Origin: Thermovibrio sp.
Lineage (GTDB): Bacteria > Aquificota > Aquificia > Desulfurobacteriales > Desulfurobacteriaceae
Assembly: GCA_015490195.1 (NCBI GenBank)
Contig: WFYG01000008.1
Location: 62,001 to 126,000 of the forward strand
Reading direction: 5' to 3'
Length of the DNA stretch: 64,000 nucleotides
The position numbers and the translations under genes were made by a program. This document shows, in pieces, positions 4,627-30,778 of this stretch (within the stretch, counting starts at the first letter, position 1; the number at the start of each line of letters is the position of its first letter). Under the pieces are notes generated by a model, which saw nothing but the letters and a program-made list of their open reading frames with translations, had not been told where the DNA came from and made no database searches.

Positions 4627-4658
4627 AAATTCTAAAGATTGACTATCTGGAGGGAAAG

Positions 4659-7600
4659 ATGAAAGGGAGGCGATGGAAAGTAACGCTGTCTGCGGGAACC
4701 TTGTTTCTCTTAGGATTATCTACTCAGGGATTGGCTCACCCGGCAGTAACTCTTAAAGACATCAACGGAAACCCCATATCAGAAACGCTGAACCAATCAG
4801 ACACAGTAACAATAGGAGGAATTACTTACGAAGCAGGAAACCCTGTAAGCTGGGAAGTTACCTGTGGTGCCTGCCACAAGGAGATTACAGGAGATGTAAG
4901 CACAGGCCTTCACTCTCCCGGCCCTATCCACGCTGCCTACCACATAGGCAGGGGCTGGGAGGAGATGTCAGACTCCTTTGGTGCCGACAGAGTAAGGGAA
5001 GGTATTGACTGGAGAAAGTTCATCAGGTCTTTAGGCGACGACGGTGCCTGGTGACCACCTTCGTACCGCCAGTTGGCGGCTAAACACCCTGCAAACGACC
5101 CAGGCCTTGCCCCTGACATAAACAACGGCATTGATTACAGGGGTAAAGTAGCCTACGACATGGACATGGGAACCCCCGATAAGGTCTTTACCTGTGCCTC
5201 CTGCCACTCCGGCGGAATTATGACTTTTGACAGGGATACAGGTAAGAGGCACGACGAGATTGAAATCTGGGACGATACAAAAGATGGAACAGGTTTTTAC
5301 TCTAAGGCTTCATATACAGACAGCGAGGTTGACGGAGACCTCTTCTCCTACACTCCAGATGAAGAGGCTCGCGGTTACATAGGAATGCCCCACAAGTTCA
5401 ACTGGAAGAAATCTGGTGTTCTTGATACAGACTGCCTCCTCTGCCACTCTGATAGATCTCTGGCTGAAGAAGAAAACTTAGTTGTTAAAACGACAAACGG
5501 CTGGAGTGCAGCAAATCCAACCCCTGCAAACCCCAGAGTATTTGTATTTGTTAAGAAAGACCCAACCGGAAAGGTTGTTGAAATCTCAATGGGATTCCCG
5601 CCTCAGCTAACTCAGGAAGAGGCCCAGAAGGGCTACACAATAGACTCTGCAGCATTCTACTCAGATCCACTTGAGAGGCTGGTTGCTGTTTACTACGGAG
5701 ATGTTATTCAGAAGGTTATCGGAGCGGAGCTCCAGAACTCTAATGTTGACCCCAGCACACTCAACCAGCAGCAGATGATGGCAATCCAGAGCTTCACAAT
5801 CGGCGTCATTACAGGCTACTTGAAACACGGAATGACGACCGGATTCACAATTCCTTACTCACAGTTGAGTCAGAAGATAGGAGTTGACCTTAAAGACTTC
5901 ACCTACAACGATTCAGACTTCAACAACAGGCTTTCAGGATTCTTCGGTCAGTTCTACCTGGATTTGGGAGCTCCCAACTTCTCAGCCAGAGACTACCTGA
6001 GAAACGCCTTCTACGAGTCAACAACTGAAGGTCAGCCCTACGTTGGAGCTGGCTTTTTCCTGAGGGCGGCATCCCCTCAGAACAATTACACTTACAAAAT
6101 AAGTGATACAGACAAAACTGTTCTGTTTGTAAGGCTTGCAAGGGCAGGGCATTTCTTCGGCTGGGCAGCAACCGGAACACTAATGGCAATAGCAGATCCA
6201 AACGACCCCAGTAAACCTTTGGCCTTTGTAAGACTTGAAAAGCAGAGCGATGGAACCTTTAAAGCAGTTGCCTACTACGCAACAGATGTTGACCTTGATA
6301 ACGTAAAACTTCCCATCCTTGAAACAGACGGCCACTATACGCTAATCCAACCCAATCCTGACACAACAACAGACGGAGTTACAGTTTCCCACAATGGAGA
6401 TAAAGATAAAGACCTCTCCCTCATGTGTGCACAGTGTCACTTTGCAGTTCCGGATACAGAAAACAGGTGGCGGGATCCTTACGGGAATTCCTATCCCAGC
6501 TGGTATGTACGCCGGGGGATCATCGGTTTAGGAGCAGACGTTGTTAAGAGGGCTGCCGTCTGTGCTCCAGATGAGAAACAGAACGACCCCAGCGTAGCTC
6601 CAATAGCAATTACTCCAGATGGAGAGATGCCTCAGTACAACAGCATGCAGGATGCCCAGAACATTACTCAGGGTCTTCCCGTTGGATACGACGTCCACAT
6701 GGCAAAGGACGGCGGAAATCTCTCCTGTCTCTCCTGCCACGGTCAGGACAACCTCTCTGAAGAGGAAAGAGAACACCACAATCCACACAACTTCCTTAAA
6801 GGTAATGACCCTGCAGGTGAGGTTATGCCTGCACTTGACTACAACCCTTCCGTTAGAACCTGTACGAGCTGCCACTGGGGAACAGACGCCAACGCTGCAA
6901 AAGCCCACGAGGCCTGGTTCGGACCGGCAGCGGGAGCCCACATCTCTTCTATAGAGTGTCAGGTCTGCCACATTCCGTACAAGACCTACTGGACATTCAG
7001 GTTCTTTGACGACAGTCTTGGATACGTCAACCAATTTGACGACAGGCTGATGAAGTTTGATAAGTCAACGGGAACCGTTAACCAGTTCCCGCCTGAGTGG
7101 GCAATTCCCGCCTTTGGTCCAACCCCAACCTACGGTCTCAACTTCTCCTACGTAATTGCTCAAACGAGCGACGACGGAGAGGATACTGTTCTGCCTATTA
7201 CCAGCGTGGATATGGATCCTTACAGAGCCCTCATGAGGGTCGGAAACAGCCAGTTTGGACTATGGGAGATTAAACCCGGTCTCTTCCCGTGGCGCTGGGC
7301 ACCGGCAATTATTAAGCGCTGGACAATAGATGACAAAGGAAATCCTGTTCTGAGAGCAGGTCTTATCAACCCAATTCAGGTCTTTACCTGGATGGACGCT
7401 GCAACCGGCAGAGCTCTCTTCACAAGAGAGATGAACATGGCAATAGACGGTGTGGCCTACGACTCAAACGGCAAGCCTTTAGGCCGTTCAACGATTGATC
7501 CTGAAGACCCTGATAAGAGTGTTCCGGGACTTACAATTGACCCGAAAACTGGAAAGATCGCCTTCAAGATTCACTACATTGACGGCAACCCTGGAGGACT

Positions 7601-9068
7601 TCCCGACTACATAGACGACGACGACGGAGACATGGTTCCCGAGATAAGCACAGATGCTGAGTACGAAGCCCTGAAAACTGCTCTCAAACAGATTCTTGAT
7701 CATGAAGACCCGGGCCATCCACACAATCCTGTTATCATGACCTTTATGGCACCCTTTGGAGTTGACCACGGAGTTCTTCCTGCAGAGTACGCTTTAGGCG
7801 CTCAAAGGACAGGTCCCCTTTCCTGTAATGCCTGCCACAACCCTGATGAGAGCAAGAACAGGCTCAGCCCGGCAGTCTGGGAAGGAGATGAAAACGCAGG
7901 TAGGGAAGTTACACTTACTGTAAGAGCTCTCCCTGAGCTTGCCATTAAGGAGTCTAAGGAAAACCACGCCTGGTTTCTGCCTGAAGGGACGAAAATTGAG
8001 GATGGTAAGTTTGTTATTACCCAGGGAGCTCTCTGTCGCGTAACGTCGGTTAAAGTTGAAAGCAAAGACTACGCAGCATTCTTCTTGGTAACTCCAGACG
8101 GAACGGTTACAGGTCCCAACTGGAACGAAATAACTGTTGCGGTTCAACCGGGCACTGTTGATACTCCAACGGCAATAAAAGTTGAAAAGGTTGAGGAAAA
8201 CTCCATAGAGGATTCTGCCCTCTCTGCAGCAAAGTCAGCAGGTCTGGGAACACCGGTTCTTGCCACCGAAATCTACAACATTCATACTAAAACCAACAGC
8301 TTCAACGAGCCTGTAACATTTACAGTTAGATATGATCCGTCAAAAGTTGTTAACAAAGTTGTCGTCCTCGCAAGTGAAGACGGCAAAAACTGGAGCGTTG
8401 TAACAACAACCAACGTTGACCCCAACAACCCGTTCGTCTCATTCGCAAGAACAAAACTTAGCTACTTTGCGGTGGTCGGCGAAGCACCTTCACTTAACAA
8501 CTTCAACATTGTTCTTCCCAAGGAAACAATCTCAAGCAATCAGGGAACTGCTGCCACTTTAACAGTTAACCTAAACGGAGAGGAGTTTAAAGTTGACGTA
8601 CAAACAGAAAACGCTTCTATAGAAGGCGTAGCACCTGAAGATACCGTTAAACAAATTGCAGAAGACAAGAAGATAGCCAAAGTACTGACGCAAATCTCTG
8701 TATCACCACAGGCAGATACGTTCACAATTACACTCTCTAACCTGCCGACAGACGCAGTTACAAACGCAACTGTTGCAACAGACAGAGGAACCGTTACAAA
8801 CATTTCCAGAGACACAGAAAATGGAACAATAACAGCTACAATATCCACTACAACAACCAGAGCTACAGAACCGGTAACGGTTGTAGTGGGAGAGCCTTTA
8901 ACAGCAATCACTCCAGTAGAAACAACAACGGCTACGGTAACCGGCGGAGGCGGAGGAGGCTGTTCTATAGCTCCTGAAACTGCTCCTGCTTCCGGAATTG
9001 CCAGCTTCCTGACGATGCTCTCCGGTATTGCAGGACTCTTTATAGGAAGGAGAAAGAGGAGAAATTAA
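4659..9068 (+). CDS. Giant secreted octaheme c-type cytochrome with in-frame TGA; candidate selenoprotein
   Basis: One continuous frame from ATG 4659 (RBS GGAGGG) to TAA 9068, interrupted only by TGA at 5052-5054; with read-through it gives 1469 residues with Sec at 132. Residues 1-26 form a signal peptide ending LAHP. Eight CXXCH heme sites start at Cys69, 179, 259, 590, 690, 735, 767 and 1056; the first lies before the TGA. The region after about 1080 is heme-free, Thr/Val-rich and Ig-like. The tail GGGGGGC (Cys1435), a hydrophobic stretch and RRKRR resembles a C-terminal surface-sorting or anchoring signal. The likely site is periplasm or cell surface, with electron transfer to a sulfur, nitrogen or metal compound; the substrate is unknown. 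The alternative is a gene broken by a nonsense mutation or base error, but all else in the frame is intact. No recognised SelB or SelA gene lies in the window. Confidence 0.72.
5052..5079 (+). promoter_or_regulatory. SECIS-like UGA plus stem-loop
   Basis: TGA (5052-5054) is followed after 11 nt by the perfect hairpin CCGCC-AGTT-GGCGG (5066-5079). The apical loop begins 16 nt after the TGA and has G as its second base. As I recall the family rules, bacterial SECIS loops lie about 16-37 nt from UGA with G among the first loop bases. The bulged U of the E. coli fdhF element is not evident. A weak outer pairing GGTG (5050-5053)/CACC (5085-5088) is possible. Confidence 0.55.
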
Positions 9069-9071
9069 CTA

Positions 9072-9095
9072 AAGGGGGCTCCGTGCCCCCTTTTT
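9072..9095 (+). terminator. Rho-independent terminator after the cytochrome gene
   Basis: AAGGGGGC, loop TCCGT, GCCCCCTT followed by more T (9072-9095). It lies between the cytochrome gene and the convergent small membrane gene, whose stop codon it overlaps. Confidence 0.9.
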
Positions 9096-9243
9096 ATTTC
9101 TCAGAGAAGATTGCAAGAACGTAAACGGCAAACGCAACCAAAAACAGAATGACGATTAACCACCAGGTTGCTTTAAAAATAAAGCGCTTCCAGTCCCTCT
9201 TTTTGTTCCGTTCTCTATAGTAATCTCTGTCGTAGATTCCCAT
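9094..9243 (-). CDS. Small single-span membrane protein, 49 aa
   Basis: Starts at ATG 9243-9241, sharing one base with the cysS stop (TAATG), so translation is probably coupled. The protein starts MGIYDRDYYRERNKK and has a basic, Tyr/Arg-rich cytoplasmic-looking head of about 22 residues. A hydrophobic helix (WWLIVILFLVAFAVYVLAIF) follows, then a short SEK tail. No family recognised; the charge distribution predicts N-in topology. The compact ORF with a clean start-stop overlap and strong TM segment supports a real gene. Confidence 0.6.
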   Translation of the reverse strand: MGIYDRDYYRERNKKRDWKRFIFKATWWLIVILFLVAFAVYVLAIFSEK

Positions 9244-28248: not shown

Positions 28249-28854
28249 ATGCTACTTGACCTTGAGAAGGGAAAGTTCCTGGTAAAACTGGCAAGGGCAG
28301 CTGTTGAGGAATACCTGAGGAGCGGAGTAAAGATAGAGCCTCCGCCGGGCACGCCGCCGGAACTTTACGAGAAGAGAGGGGTCTTTGTAACGCTGAAAAC
28401 TTACCCTCAGAGAGAGCTCCGCGGTTGTATAGGTTATCCGGAACCGATAATGCCCTTAGTCCTTGCAACGATAGATGCGGCAATATCTTCAGCAACCAGA
28501 GACCCCAGGTTCTACCCTGTAGGCGTTGAAGAACTTCCCAAACTTCTCTTTGAAGTAACCGTTCTAACTCCACCTCAGCCCATAGATGTTCCTCCAGAGG
28601 AGCTCCCCAGAGCAATAAAAGTTGGAAGAGACGGACTAATCGTCAGATGCGGCTACACAAGTGGACTGCTTCTGCCTCAAGTTCCCGTTGAGTGGGGCTG
28701 GAACGAGGAAGAGTTCTTAGCCCAAACCTGCGTGAAAGCTGGCCTTCCTCCCAACTGCTGGCTTGACCCAAGGTGTCAGTTCTATAAGTTTCAGGGGCAG
28801 ATATTCACAGAAGTGGAACCATACGGAGAAGTTGTAGAAGAGAAAATCTCTTAA
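28249..28854 (+). CDS. AMMECR1 / AmmeMemoRadiSam system protein A
   Basis: A 201-residue AMMECR1-domain protein. Conserved blocks are VFVTLKTYPQRELRGCIGY, AAISSATRDPRFYPVGVEEL and the C-terminal GLLLPQVPVEWGWNEEEFL. In many genomes it is linked to a Memo-like protein and a radical SAM enzyme; those partners are not in this window. Molecular function is unknown. RBS GGAGGGAG precedes the ATG. Confidence 0.9.
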   Translation: MLLDLEKGKFLVKLARAAVEEYLRSGVKIEPPPGTPPELYEKRGVFVTLKTYPQRELRGCIGYPEPIMPLVLATIDAAISSATRDPRFYPVGVEELPKLLFEVTVLTPPQPIDVPPEELPRAIKVGRDGLIVRCGYTSGLLLPQVPVEWGWNEEEFLAQTCVKAGLPPNCWLDPRCQFYKFQGQIFTEVEPYGEVVEEKIS

Positions 28855-28861
28855 GGAGGAG

Positions 28862-29491
28862 ATGTTGCACGATTGGATACTCAACTTCCTGATAGCACTG
28901 CCGGGAATTCTGTGGGCTATGACAATACACGAGTTTGCCCACGGTTACATTGCCTACAAACTGGGAGATCCCACTCCAAAACTGGCTGGAAGGCTAACCC
29001 TAAACCCATTGGCTCACATAGACATAATCGGATTCATAGCCCTGTTCCTCGTTCACTTTGGCTGGGCAAAACCGGTTCCTATAAACCCCAGAAACTTCAG
29101 GAAAACCTCCTTCTGGAAGCTGGGAGAGGTACTCGTAGCCTTTGCCGGCCCAATGGCAAACTTCATAAGCGCGTTCGTTTTTGTTCTCTTACTTAAGTAC
29201 CTTCCTTTCTCTTCACTTTCCCCTTCGGTAGCAGAGCCTCTCTTCCTGATGCTTAAGTACGGAGTATTCATAAACGTTGCTTTCGGTATCTTCAACCTCA
29301 TTCCCGTTCCACCCCTTGACGGGTCAAAAATACTTGAAACCCTGCTTCCACCAAAACTGTGGATAAAGTACAAGCAGATAGAACCTTACGGTCCCATTAT
29401 TCTGATAATACTCATAATAAGTCCTGTGTTAAACTGGATACTGATACCTCTGGTAAACGGAATGGTAAAGGCAATGTTTCTCTTAACCTGA
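28862..29491 (+). CDS. Site-2 protease family (M50) membrane metalloprotease
   Basis: A 209-residue polytopic protein. The zinc motif HEFAHG (HExxH) sits in TM helix 1, and the third ligand Asp is in FNLIPVPPLDGSKIL. It has the compact, PDZ-free SREBP/YwhC architecture, so is not RseP. It probably cleaves a membrane substrate in the bilayer. RBS AAGGAGGAG precedes the ATG, 7 bp after the AMMECR1 stop. Confidence 0.9.
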   Translation: MLHDWILNFLIALPGILWAMTIHEFAHGYIAYKLGDPTPKLAGRLTLNPLAHIDIIGFIALFLVHFGWAKPVPINPRNFRKTSFWKLGEVLVAFAGPMANFISAFVFVLLLKYLPFSSLSPSVAEPLFLMLKYGVFINVAFGIFNLIPVPPLDGSKILETLLPPKLWIKYKQIEPYGPIILIILIISPVLNWILIPLVNGMVKAMFLLT

Positions 29492-29506
29492 ATAAAAGAG
29501 GCAGAG

Positions 29507-30778
29507 ATGCTCTTTAAAGAACTGATAAAGAAAAAGAGAGACGGAGAAGTACTCTCCGGGGAAGAAATTGAGTTTATAGTCAGGTCTTACACTGCAGGGG
29601 AAACCCCCGACTACCAGATGGCCGCCCTCTTAATGGCAATATTCTTTCAGGGTTTGAACTACAATGAGACCCTTCACCTCACAGACTCCATGCTCCGTTC
29701 GGGAAAGAGGGTAACGGTAAAAGCAAAAGGGACGCTGGTTGATAAACACAGTACCGGAGGAATAGGGGACAAAGTTTCCCTGGTTATAGCCCCGGTCCTT
29801 GCGGAGCTCGGTTTCAAAGCACCTCTCCTTGCTGGGAGGGCTCTGGGTTTCACCGGGGGAACCATTGACAAGCTGGAAAGTACGGGAATGAAGGTGGAGC
29901 TCTCAGACAAGGAAATCTCTGAAGTAACAGAGAAGTTCGGTTTCTCAATTTCAGCCCAAACTCCAGAGATAGCTCCGGCCGACAGAAAGATATACGCCCT
30001 TAGAGATGCAACAGCCACGGTTGAGAGTATTCCGCTAATAGTTTCAAGTATCCTGAGCAAAAAGTTAGCCGTAAACACAGAGGCGATAGTTTTTGACGTT
30101 AAAGTGGGAAGTGGAGCCTTTATGAAAACGATGAAAAAGGCTAAAGAGCTTGCAGAAGGGCTTGTTCAGGTAAGCAAGCTCTACGGTAAGAAGGCGGGAG
30201 CTCTCATAACCGAAATGAGCCAACCACTGGGACTCTTTGCAGGAAACGCGTTAGAAGTGAGGGAAGCGGCAGATGCTTTGAAAGGAACAGTTCAGCCAGA
30301 CCTTCTGGAAGTGGTCTCTTCCTTGATAGGGCTTCTCTACGAACTTACAGGGAAAGGAACTTTCTCCCGAGGAAAAACAGAAGCGGAAGAGGTTATAAAG
30401 AGCGGAAAAGCCATTAAGCGTTTTGAAGAGTGGGTTAAATACCTGGGAGGTAATCCCTATCCTGAAATAAAGGCAAAGCACCTGGTAGTTGAATCTCCAG
30501 CCTCTGGTTACGTCTCTGACATAAACGGAGAAGCCTTAGGCTGGCTCATCGTTGAAATGGGAGGCGGAAGAAAGAGAGCCGATGACAGGATAGACTACTC
30601 CGTAGGCTTGGCCTTCTTCAAGAAAATTGGAGACAGGGTTGAAAAAGGAGAACCTATAGGAGAAATATACTGGAACACCGGAGACAGAGAGCAGTTCCTT
30701 AACTCCTTTATTTCAGCCTTCAAACTGTCGGAAGAAGAGGTAAGTAGACCAGAACTGATTAAAGAAAAAGTGGTTTAA
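29507..30778 (+). CDS. deoA: Pyrimidine-nucleoside / thymidine phosphorylase
   Basis: A 423-residue enzyme of the family-usual length. The phosphate-binding signature is KHSTGGIGDKVSLV, followed by GRALGFTGGTIDKLE, LRDATATVESIPLI and DVKVGSGAFMK. The C-terminal barrel-sandwich domain ends near DRIDYSVGLAFFKKIGDRV. It phosphorolyses pyrimidine nucleosides for salvage. pdp is an equally valid name. Start ATG with RBS GAGG. Confidence 0.93.
   Translation: MLFKELIKKKRDGEVLSGEEIEFIVRSYTAGETPDYQMAALLMAIFFQGLNYNETLHLTDSMLRSGKRVTVKAKGTLVDKHSTGGIGDKVSLVIAPVLAELGFKAPLLAGRALGFTGGTIDKLESTGMKVELSDKEISEVTEKFGFSISAQTPEIAPADRKIYALRDATATVESIPLIVSSILSKKLAVNTEAIVFDVKVGSGAFMKTMKKAKELAEGLVQVSKLYGKKAGALITEMSQPLGLFAGNALEVREAADALKGTVQPDLLEVVSSLIGLLYELTGKGTFSRGKTEAEEVIKSGKAIKRFEEWVKYLGGNPYPEIKAKHLVVESPASGYVSDINGEALGWLIVEMGGGRKRADDRIDYSVGLAFFKKIGDRVEKGEPIGEIYWNTGDREQFLNSFISAFKLSEEEVSRPELIKEKVV

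Follow-up and report, generated by a model that had tools for sequence, protein, structure and literature searches.

Does a TGA inside a cytochrome reading frame end the gene, or does it encode an amino acid? The question was raised by a locus in the window analyzed here, a stretch of 64,000 nucleotides from Thermovibrio sp. (contig WFYG01000008.1, positions 62,001 to 126,000). Positions 4659–9068 of the window form a single gene, designated gene A, of 1469 codons and a TAA stop. Its sole in-frame TGA lies at 5052–5054 (codon 132). The product contains eight CXXCH heme motifs, one N-terminal and seven C-terminal of the TGA. A first-pass annotation, made from the sequence, had described this frame and proposed selenocysteine (Sec) at residue 132. 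The frame, the lone TGA and the distribution of the heme sites were all confirmed.

The features that bear on the reading of the TGA are as follows.

4659–9068, + strand: complete gene, predicted octaheme c-type selenocytochrome of group A, 1469 amino acids, with TGA 132 read as Sec (from the frame and homologues)
5052–5054, + strand: in-frame TGA, putative Sec132, in the context W-U-P-P-S-Y-R-Q-L-A-A-K (TGA in 27 of 27 homologues)
5055–5063, + strand: codons 133–135 (P-P-S), directly 3' of the TGA and ahead of every possible restart (amino acids invariant, synonymous codons free)
5066–5079, + strand: putative Sec insertion sequence (SECIS) hairpin CCGCC(AGTT)GGCGG, with the loop starting 16 nt 3' of the TGA (invariant in homologues, unique to the A and B genes, fold)

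Conservation of the TGA and its hairpin

Homologues were searched for in 136 Aquificota genomes, including 22 of the family Desulfurobacteriaceae. They were found in 17 of the 136 genomes, all Desulfurobacteriaceae, in six of seven genera. When N-terminal matches had been joined, the count was 27 homologous genes, 13 in group A and 14 in group B, each with one TGA in the same place. The first-pass annotation had suggested looking for Cys at position 132. The position was indeed conserved and not random, but Cys or another residue replaced the TGA in none of the 27 homologues.

The finished isolate genomes of T. ammonificans HB-1T and D. thermolithotrophum BSAT carried the same TGA. This excluded a sequencing error or frameshift at 5052, as well as an artefact of metagenome-assembled genomes.

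The group B paralogue in the source genome (contig C41:15099–19688; L015:5097–9692, - strand) also encodes eight CXXCH motifs. It is 35% identical to A, has its TGA at the same codon and carries an identical hairpin. In a FastTree phylogeny A and B formed two groups with a long branch between them. This suggested that the TGA and the hairpin most simply date at least to the common ancestor of A and B. D. thermolithotrophum has A and lacks B.

The plainest alternative is a genuine stop, in which case the locus would be a pseudogene, a pair of genes or the product of a sequencing error. Standard annotation rules would split gene A at the TGA, and annotation as two fragments (4659–5054 and 5073–9068) is likely under them. 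Plain open reading frame calling gave the same two pieces, the second 'start' being a TTG within the hairpin. That TTG, at 5073, is the earliest possible restart and the only near one, and residues 133–138 lie between it and the TGA. Across proteins only 35% identical, P133, P134 and S135 showed synonymous variation only. This is the pattern of a frame whose translation began upstream, and it supports translation of the TGA. Purifying selection was evident on both sides, with dN/dS of about 0.11–0.14 on the 5' side of the TGA and 0.04–0.10 on the 3' side. Together with the TGA shared by all 27 homologues, two finished genomes included, these conservation data refuted the genuine stop, to which we give almost no weight.

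The hairpin was tested by a codon alignment of 23 A and B sequences, which contained 221 invariant amino-acid columns, Met and Trp left out. The hairpin codons 136–140 (TAC CGC CAG TTG GCG) were invariant as codons in all five cases. Among the other invariant residues (TGA and hairpin codons excluded), the codon was invariant in only two of 215 (Fisher p = 5.1e-9, a comparison of alignment columns that takes no account of phylogeny). Three of the hairpin codons are rare in the A and B genes: CGC makes up 7.5% of Arg, TTG 5.7% of Leu and GCG 6.8% of Ala codons. Just outside the hairpin, at P133, P134 and S135 before it and at A141 and K142 after it, the amino acid was fixed and the wobble base free. 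The hairpin 14-mer occurred 27 times in the 22 family genomes, each time in an A or B gene, and its reversed control did not occur. This pattern indicated that the hairpin is under selection at the RNA level.

As RNA, the hairpin has a 5-bp stem and an AGUU loop 16 nt from the UGA, with a minimum free energy (MFE) of -9.4 kcal/mol. The published limits for bacterial SECIS (bSECIS) elements are an upper stem of 4–16 bp, a loop of 3–9 nt with a G at position 1 or 2, 16–37 nt from the UGA, and an MFE of at most -7.5 (PMC13188914). The gene A hairpin lay within all four constraints of that source, and its sequence and spacing, as given in the first-pass annotation, were retained in all 27 homologues. 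Its folding energy was unremarkable against shuffled sequences (z = -0.66) and was not used as evidence. The case for recoding therefore rests on conservation.

The first-pass annotation had named the Sec machinery of the genome as a check. The source genome, a member of Desulfurobacteriaceae (1.68 Mb, 99.8% complete), contains tRNA-Sec (81.7 bits; anticodon TCA by ARAGORN) as well as selA, selB and selD (profile matches of 605, 439 and 376 bits). Its selD (C43:1536–2462, L060) has an in-frame TGA of its own (RASG-U-GAKLS) and is thus a predicted selenoprotein gene. The selD hairpin AGCCC-GGTC-GGGCT (G-U loop), whose loop lies 17 nt 3' of the selD TGA, served as SECIS control. In the Fdh-alpha matches of this genome, taken as a second SECIS control, no in-frame TGA was found.

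SelB scored above the cut-off in 20 of the 22 family genomes, and an earlier report describes tRNA-Sec in both T. ammonificans and D. thermolithotrophum (PMC4227106). Five genomes, G123–G126 (genus g3) and G120, had SelB over the cut-off and neither A nor B. The A/B protein is therefore not universal in Desulfurobacteriaceae, and the use of Sec in the family is independent of these cytochromes.

The conserved TGA, the RNA-level selection on the hairpin and the complete machinery bear out the first-pass proposal. It is well supported, at the level of sequence, that the UGA is translated, that recoding is signalled by the hairpin and that the genome is equipped for it. Incorporation of Sec into the octaheme cytochrome is very probable on the same grounds.

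Another TGA-joined frame in the window (28838–30775) was rejected as a candidate. It consists of two ordinary adjoining genes in the same frame, one site-2-protease-like and the next pyrimidine-phosphorylase-like, and its TGA looks like an ordinary stop.

Layout of the protein and its relation to known cytochromes

The remaining features of gene A are all on the + strand.

4649–4654, + strand: ribosome-binding site GGAGGG, directly 5' of the ATG (from sequence)
4659–4736, + strand: predicted signal peptide, about residues 1–26, MKGRRWKVTLSAGTLFLLGLSTQGLA (from sequence; homologues have equivalent hydrophobic N-termini)
4863–4877, + strand: heme motif 1, CGACH (residues 69–73), ahead of the TGA (this and the other heme motifs from the motif and homologue alignment)
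5193–5207, + strand: heme motif 2, CASCH (179–183)
5433–5447, + strand: heme motif 3, CLLCH (259–263)
6426–6440, + strand: heme motif 4, CAQCH (590–594)
6726–6740, + strand: heme motif 5, CLSCH (690–694)
6861–6875, + strand: heme motif 6, CTSCH (735–739)
6957–6971, + strand: heme motif 7, CQVCH (767–771)
7824–7838, + strand: heme motif 8, CNACH (1056–1060)
8946–9065, + strand: C-terminal tail GGGGGC-S / hydrophobic / RRKRR, JDVT/MYXO-CTERM-like, under the model cut-offs (from sequence and profile)
9073–9098, + strand: terminator-like inverted repeat AAGGGGGC..GCCCCCTTTTT, 3' of gene A (read from sequence)

The product is about 160 kDa. In the 23 aligned A and B sequences the Cys and His of all eight CXXCH motifs were invariant. 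Beyond these motifs exactly eight His were invariant (27, 91, 680, 707, 710, 750, 761 and 1037). Among Cys and Sec residues, only Sec132 and the heme cysteines were invariant in the heme-bearing part of the homologue alignment. Sequence and profile searches of the PDB gave no convincing relative of the product, and relatives of gene A were not found in plasmid and viral collections.

The first-pass annotation had considered a Sec-containing multiheme cytochrome striking. There is precedent for one in ExtKL and in an octaheme annotated in GenBank. ExtKL of Geobacter (GSU2937–GSU2936; NCBI model NF040886, cyt_C_like_Sec) was predicted in 2007 (PMC1914089) and discussed in 2018 (PMC5877670). Like the gene A product, it is a multiheme c-type cytochrome that is predicted to be secreted and to contain a single Sec, whose in-frame TGA once split it into two genes. 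It differs in its size of about 50 kDa, its place in the ext cluster and its hemes, which number five and lie in the N-terminal part (PMC1914089). In A, by contrast, a single heme precedes the Sec and seven follow it, the mass is about 160 kDa and the tail is sorting-like. The gene A protein did not match NF040886 (cut-off 250 bits), and the best match in the 22 genomes was 21.9 bits, elsewhere in the genome.

This bears on the idea that the A and B proteins reduce selenite or tellurite or handle selenium, as proposed for the Geobacter ext cluster. ExtKL, a Sec multiheme cytochrome in a selenite/tellurite reduction cluster (PMC5877670), is the precedent for such a role. With its model above the cut-off in none of the 22 genomes, no match to the gene A protein itself and no ext-like neighbours at the loci inspected, we consider a selenium role improbable.

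The second precedent is the GenBank-annotated TIGR04315 octaheme selenoprotein WP_331457571.1, listed in a 2026 review that makes no mention of Aquificota, Thermovibrio or Desulfurobacterium (PMC13188914). Octahemes of this tetrathionate reductase family share with A the number of c-type hemes and a partial similarity around hemes 5–7. The match of A to the family model reached 35 bits against a cut-off of 375, and the remainder was unaligned. This weak match and the eight hemes might suggest an octaheme enzyme of the HAO/OTR/MccA type that has gained a Sec and reduces nitrite, hydroxylamine or sulfite. The alignment is confined to hemes 5–7, though, and all eight heme motifs are plain CXXCH. 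Neither nitrate nor nitrite is used by D. thermolithotrophum, which bears A (PMC3368423); sulfite may still be a substrate. An enzyme of this type is thus unlikely, if slightly less so than a selenium role.

As neither the ExtKL nor the TIGR04315 model fits, A and B are a new family within a known, rare kind, the Sec multiheme cytochromes. Our paper searches found no literature on octaheme or multiheme cytochromes in Desulfurobacteriaceae.

A third, Sec-free octaheme group was also observed in the source genome (C19:11113–14493; L016, - strand). This copy has two in-frame TAG codons and is either a pseudogene or an assembly error; the frame is intact in a sister genome (L062:911–4309). The group resembles A in its similar N-terminal plan, eight CXXCH motifs and the same C-terminal tail, and in the matched stretches is 32% (N-terminus) and 51% (C-terminus) identical to it. 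Unlike A, it has no TGA, Cys or Sec at the site, and several of the invariant His are unaligned. A redox protein with the pattern C_GCAxxG_C_C, fused to a small multiheme part, adjoins this third gene (L062:4325–5305, L016:2109–3107). PF09719 proteins are known elsewhere in Sec form.

Proposed function and its alternatives

In the mechanism that we propose, tRNA-Sec and SelB would decode UGA 132 as Sec, with the hairpin at 5066–5079 as their guide. The product would be one secreted octaheme c-type cytochrome, belonging to the first of two ancient groups of paralogues (A and B), and its C-terminal tail would anchor it to the cell surface. There it may act as a terminal redox protein, with electrons arriving via the heme chain. 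Sec132 would attack the substrate, for which a sulfur compound (S0, polysulfide or thiosulfate) is the likeliest candidate, and the resulting Se-S adduct would then be reduced by the hemes. As the sole invariant non-heme Cys/Sec, Sec132 would act without a conserved partner thiol. The eight spare His would allow bis-His ligation of all hemes, which makes a heme-ligand role of Sec132 unnecessary, though possible; more probably the residue is left available to react with a substrate or partner.

The choice of substrate came from the physiology of the hosts. D. thermolithotrophum grows with S0, thiosulfate, sulfite and polysulfides (PMC3368423), and T. ammonificans grows on S0 and nitrate (PMC3570795). 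S0 is the acceptor common to both. D. thermolithotrophum HR11 is reported to lack a molybdopterin thiosulfate/polysulfide reductase, a dissimilatory sulfite reductase and a membrane-bound sulfane reductase, and its mechanism of thiosulfate reduction is reported as unknown (PMC12724263). The shared acceptor and the lack of several known sulfur reductases favoured a surface reductase of sulfur species with a selenol nucleophile. It is the single most likely function, though a tentative assignment.

A close second is a conduit for extracellular electron transfer, or a metal or mineral reductase, in which Sec132 would ligate a heme or metal, or form a contact point, instead of acting as a nucleophile on the substrate. 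The number of hemes, the MtrC/MtrF-like and cytochrome c7 domain matches and the putative surface anchor are all in its favour. MtrC/MtrF, OmcA and Pcc proteins are likewise large, multiheme and probably at the cell surface, and A has a short match to the Pfam domain II/IV, but they differ from A in heme number and give no overall alignment. To our knowledge, these families have not been described as having Sec.

The gene neighbourhood is also relevant here. In D. thermolithotrophum an operon for 7-, 7-, 6-, 3- and 28-heme cytochromes, together with a cytochrome b561-like and an NHL protein, runs convergently to the A gene (L065:972–4046 and L099:12938–17969; the 28-heme cytochrome forms the operon end). 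Both this species and T. ammonificans are described as having porin-cytochrome clusters (PMC4245776). The operon and the clusters are consistent with a conduit, and the operon is in line with the sulfur reductase too, but the operon link comes from one genome only. The eight extra invariant His could already provide bis-His ligation of eight hemes, and a cytochrome that carries electrons does not ordinarily require a Sec that never varies. A conduit or metal reductase is therefore possible, just behind the surface sulfur reductase.

Several points weigh against the sulfur reductase and the Sec protein behind it. The support for Sec132 comes from DNA sequence. In the window gene A is a lone gene flanked by prfB and, in convergent orientation, cysS, housekeeping neighbours that give no functional context. 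The tail scored 14.0 of 27 bits (JDVT-CTERM) and 12.7 of 20 bits (MYXO-CTERM), with the motif shape kept in homologues, and an MrtJ-like protease in the source genome is distant (49 bits against a cut-off of 75), so that anchor motif and protease are both under curated cut-offs. An AlphaFold2 model of residues 26–1170 from four sequences had a pLDDT of 27 and no usable Sec-heme geometry. The substrate was assigned only by host physiology and elimination.

Paralogue B has alaS on one side and the gene of a PPIC-type prolyl isomerase lipoprotein on the other, with similar neighbours in T. ammonificans (L064).

We infer surface anchoring and a terminal redox role, and the protein probably takes part in respiring sulfur or another external electron acceptor. 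More speculatively, and rather less likely than not, the surface-anchored Sec octaheme could be the missing terminal reductase of Desulfurobacteriaceae for S0, polysulfide or thiosulfate, in which a heme-wired selenol cleaves S-S bonds. We know of no sulfur reductase for which such a design has been described.

Meaning for the Desulfurobacteriaceae

Very few Sec cytochromes are known, and we found none with a characterized catalytic role. The A and B proteins form a second, clearly separate family of them, with an unusually clean recoding signature. The family appears to be absolutely dependent on Sec, as no Cys version was seen among the 27 homologues. Its hosts are hydrogen- and sulfur-metabolizing vent bacteria, for one of which, HR11, the terminal reductase for thiosulfate is reported as unknown, and two type strains that can be cultured carry it, T. 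ammonificans and D. thermolithotrophum. Standard rules would annotate the genes in pieces; if this is the case, proteomic and comparative work on these organisms has missed the full protein.

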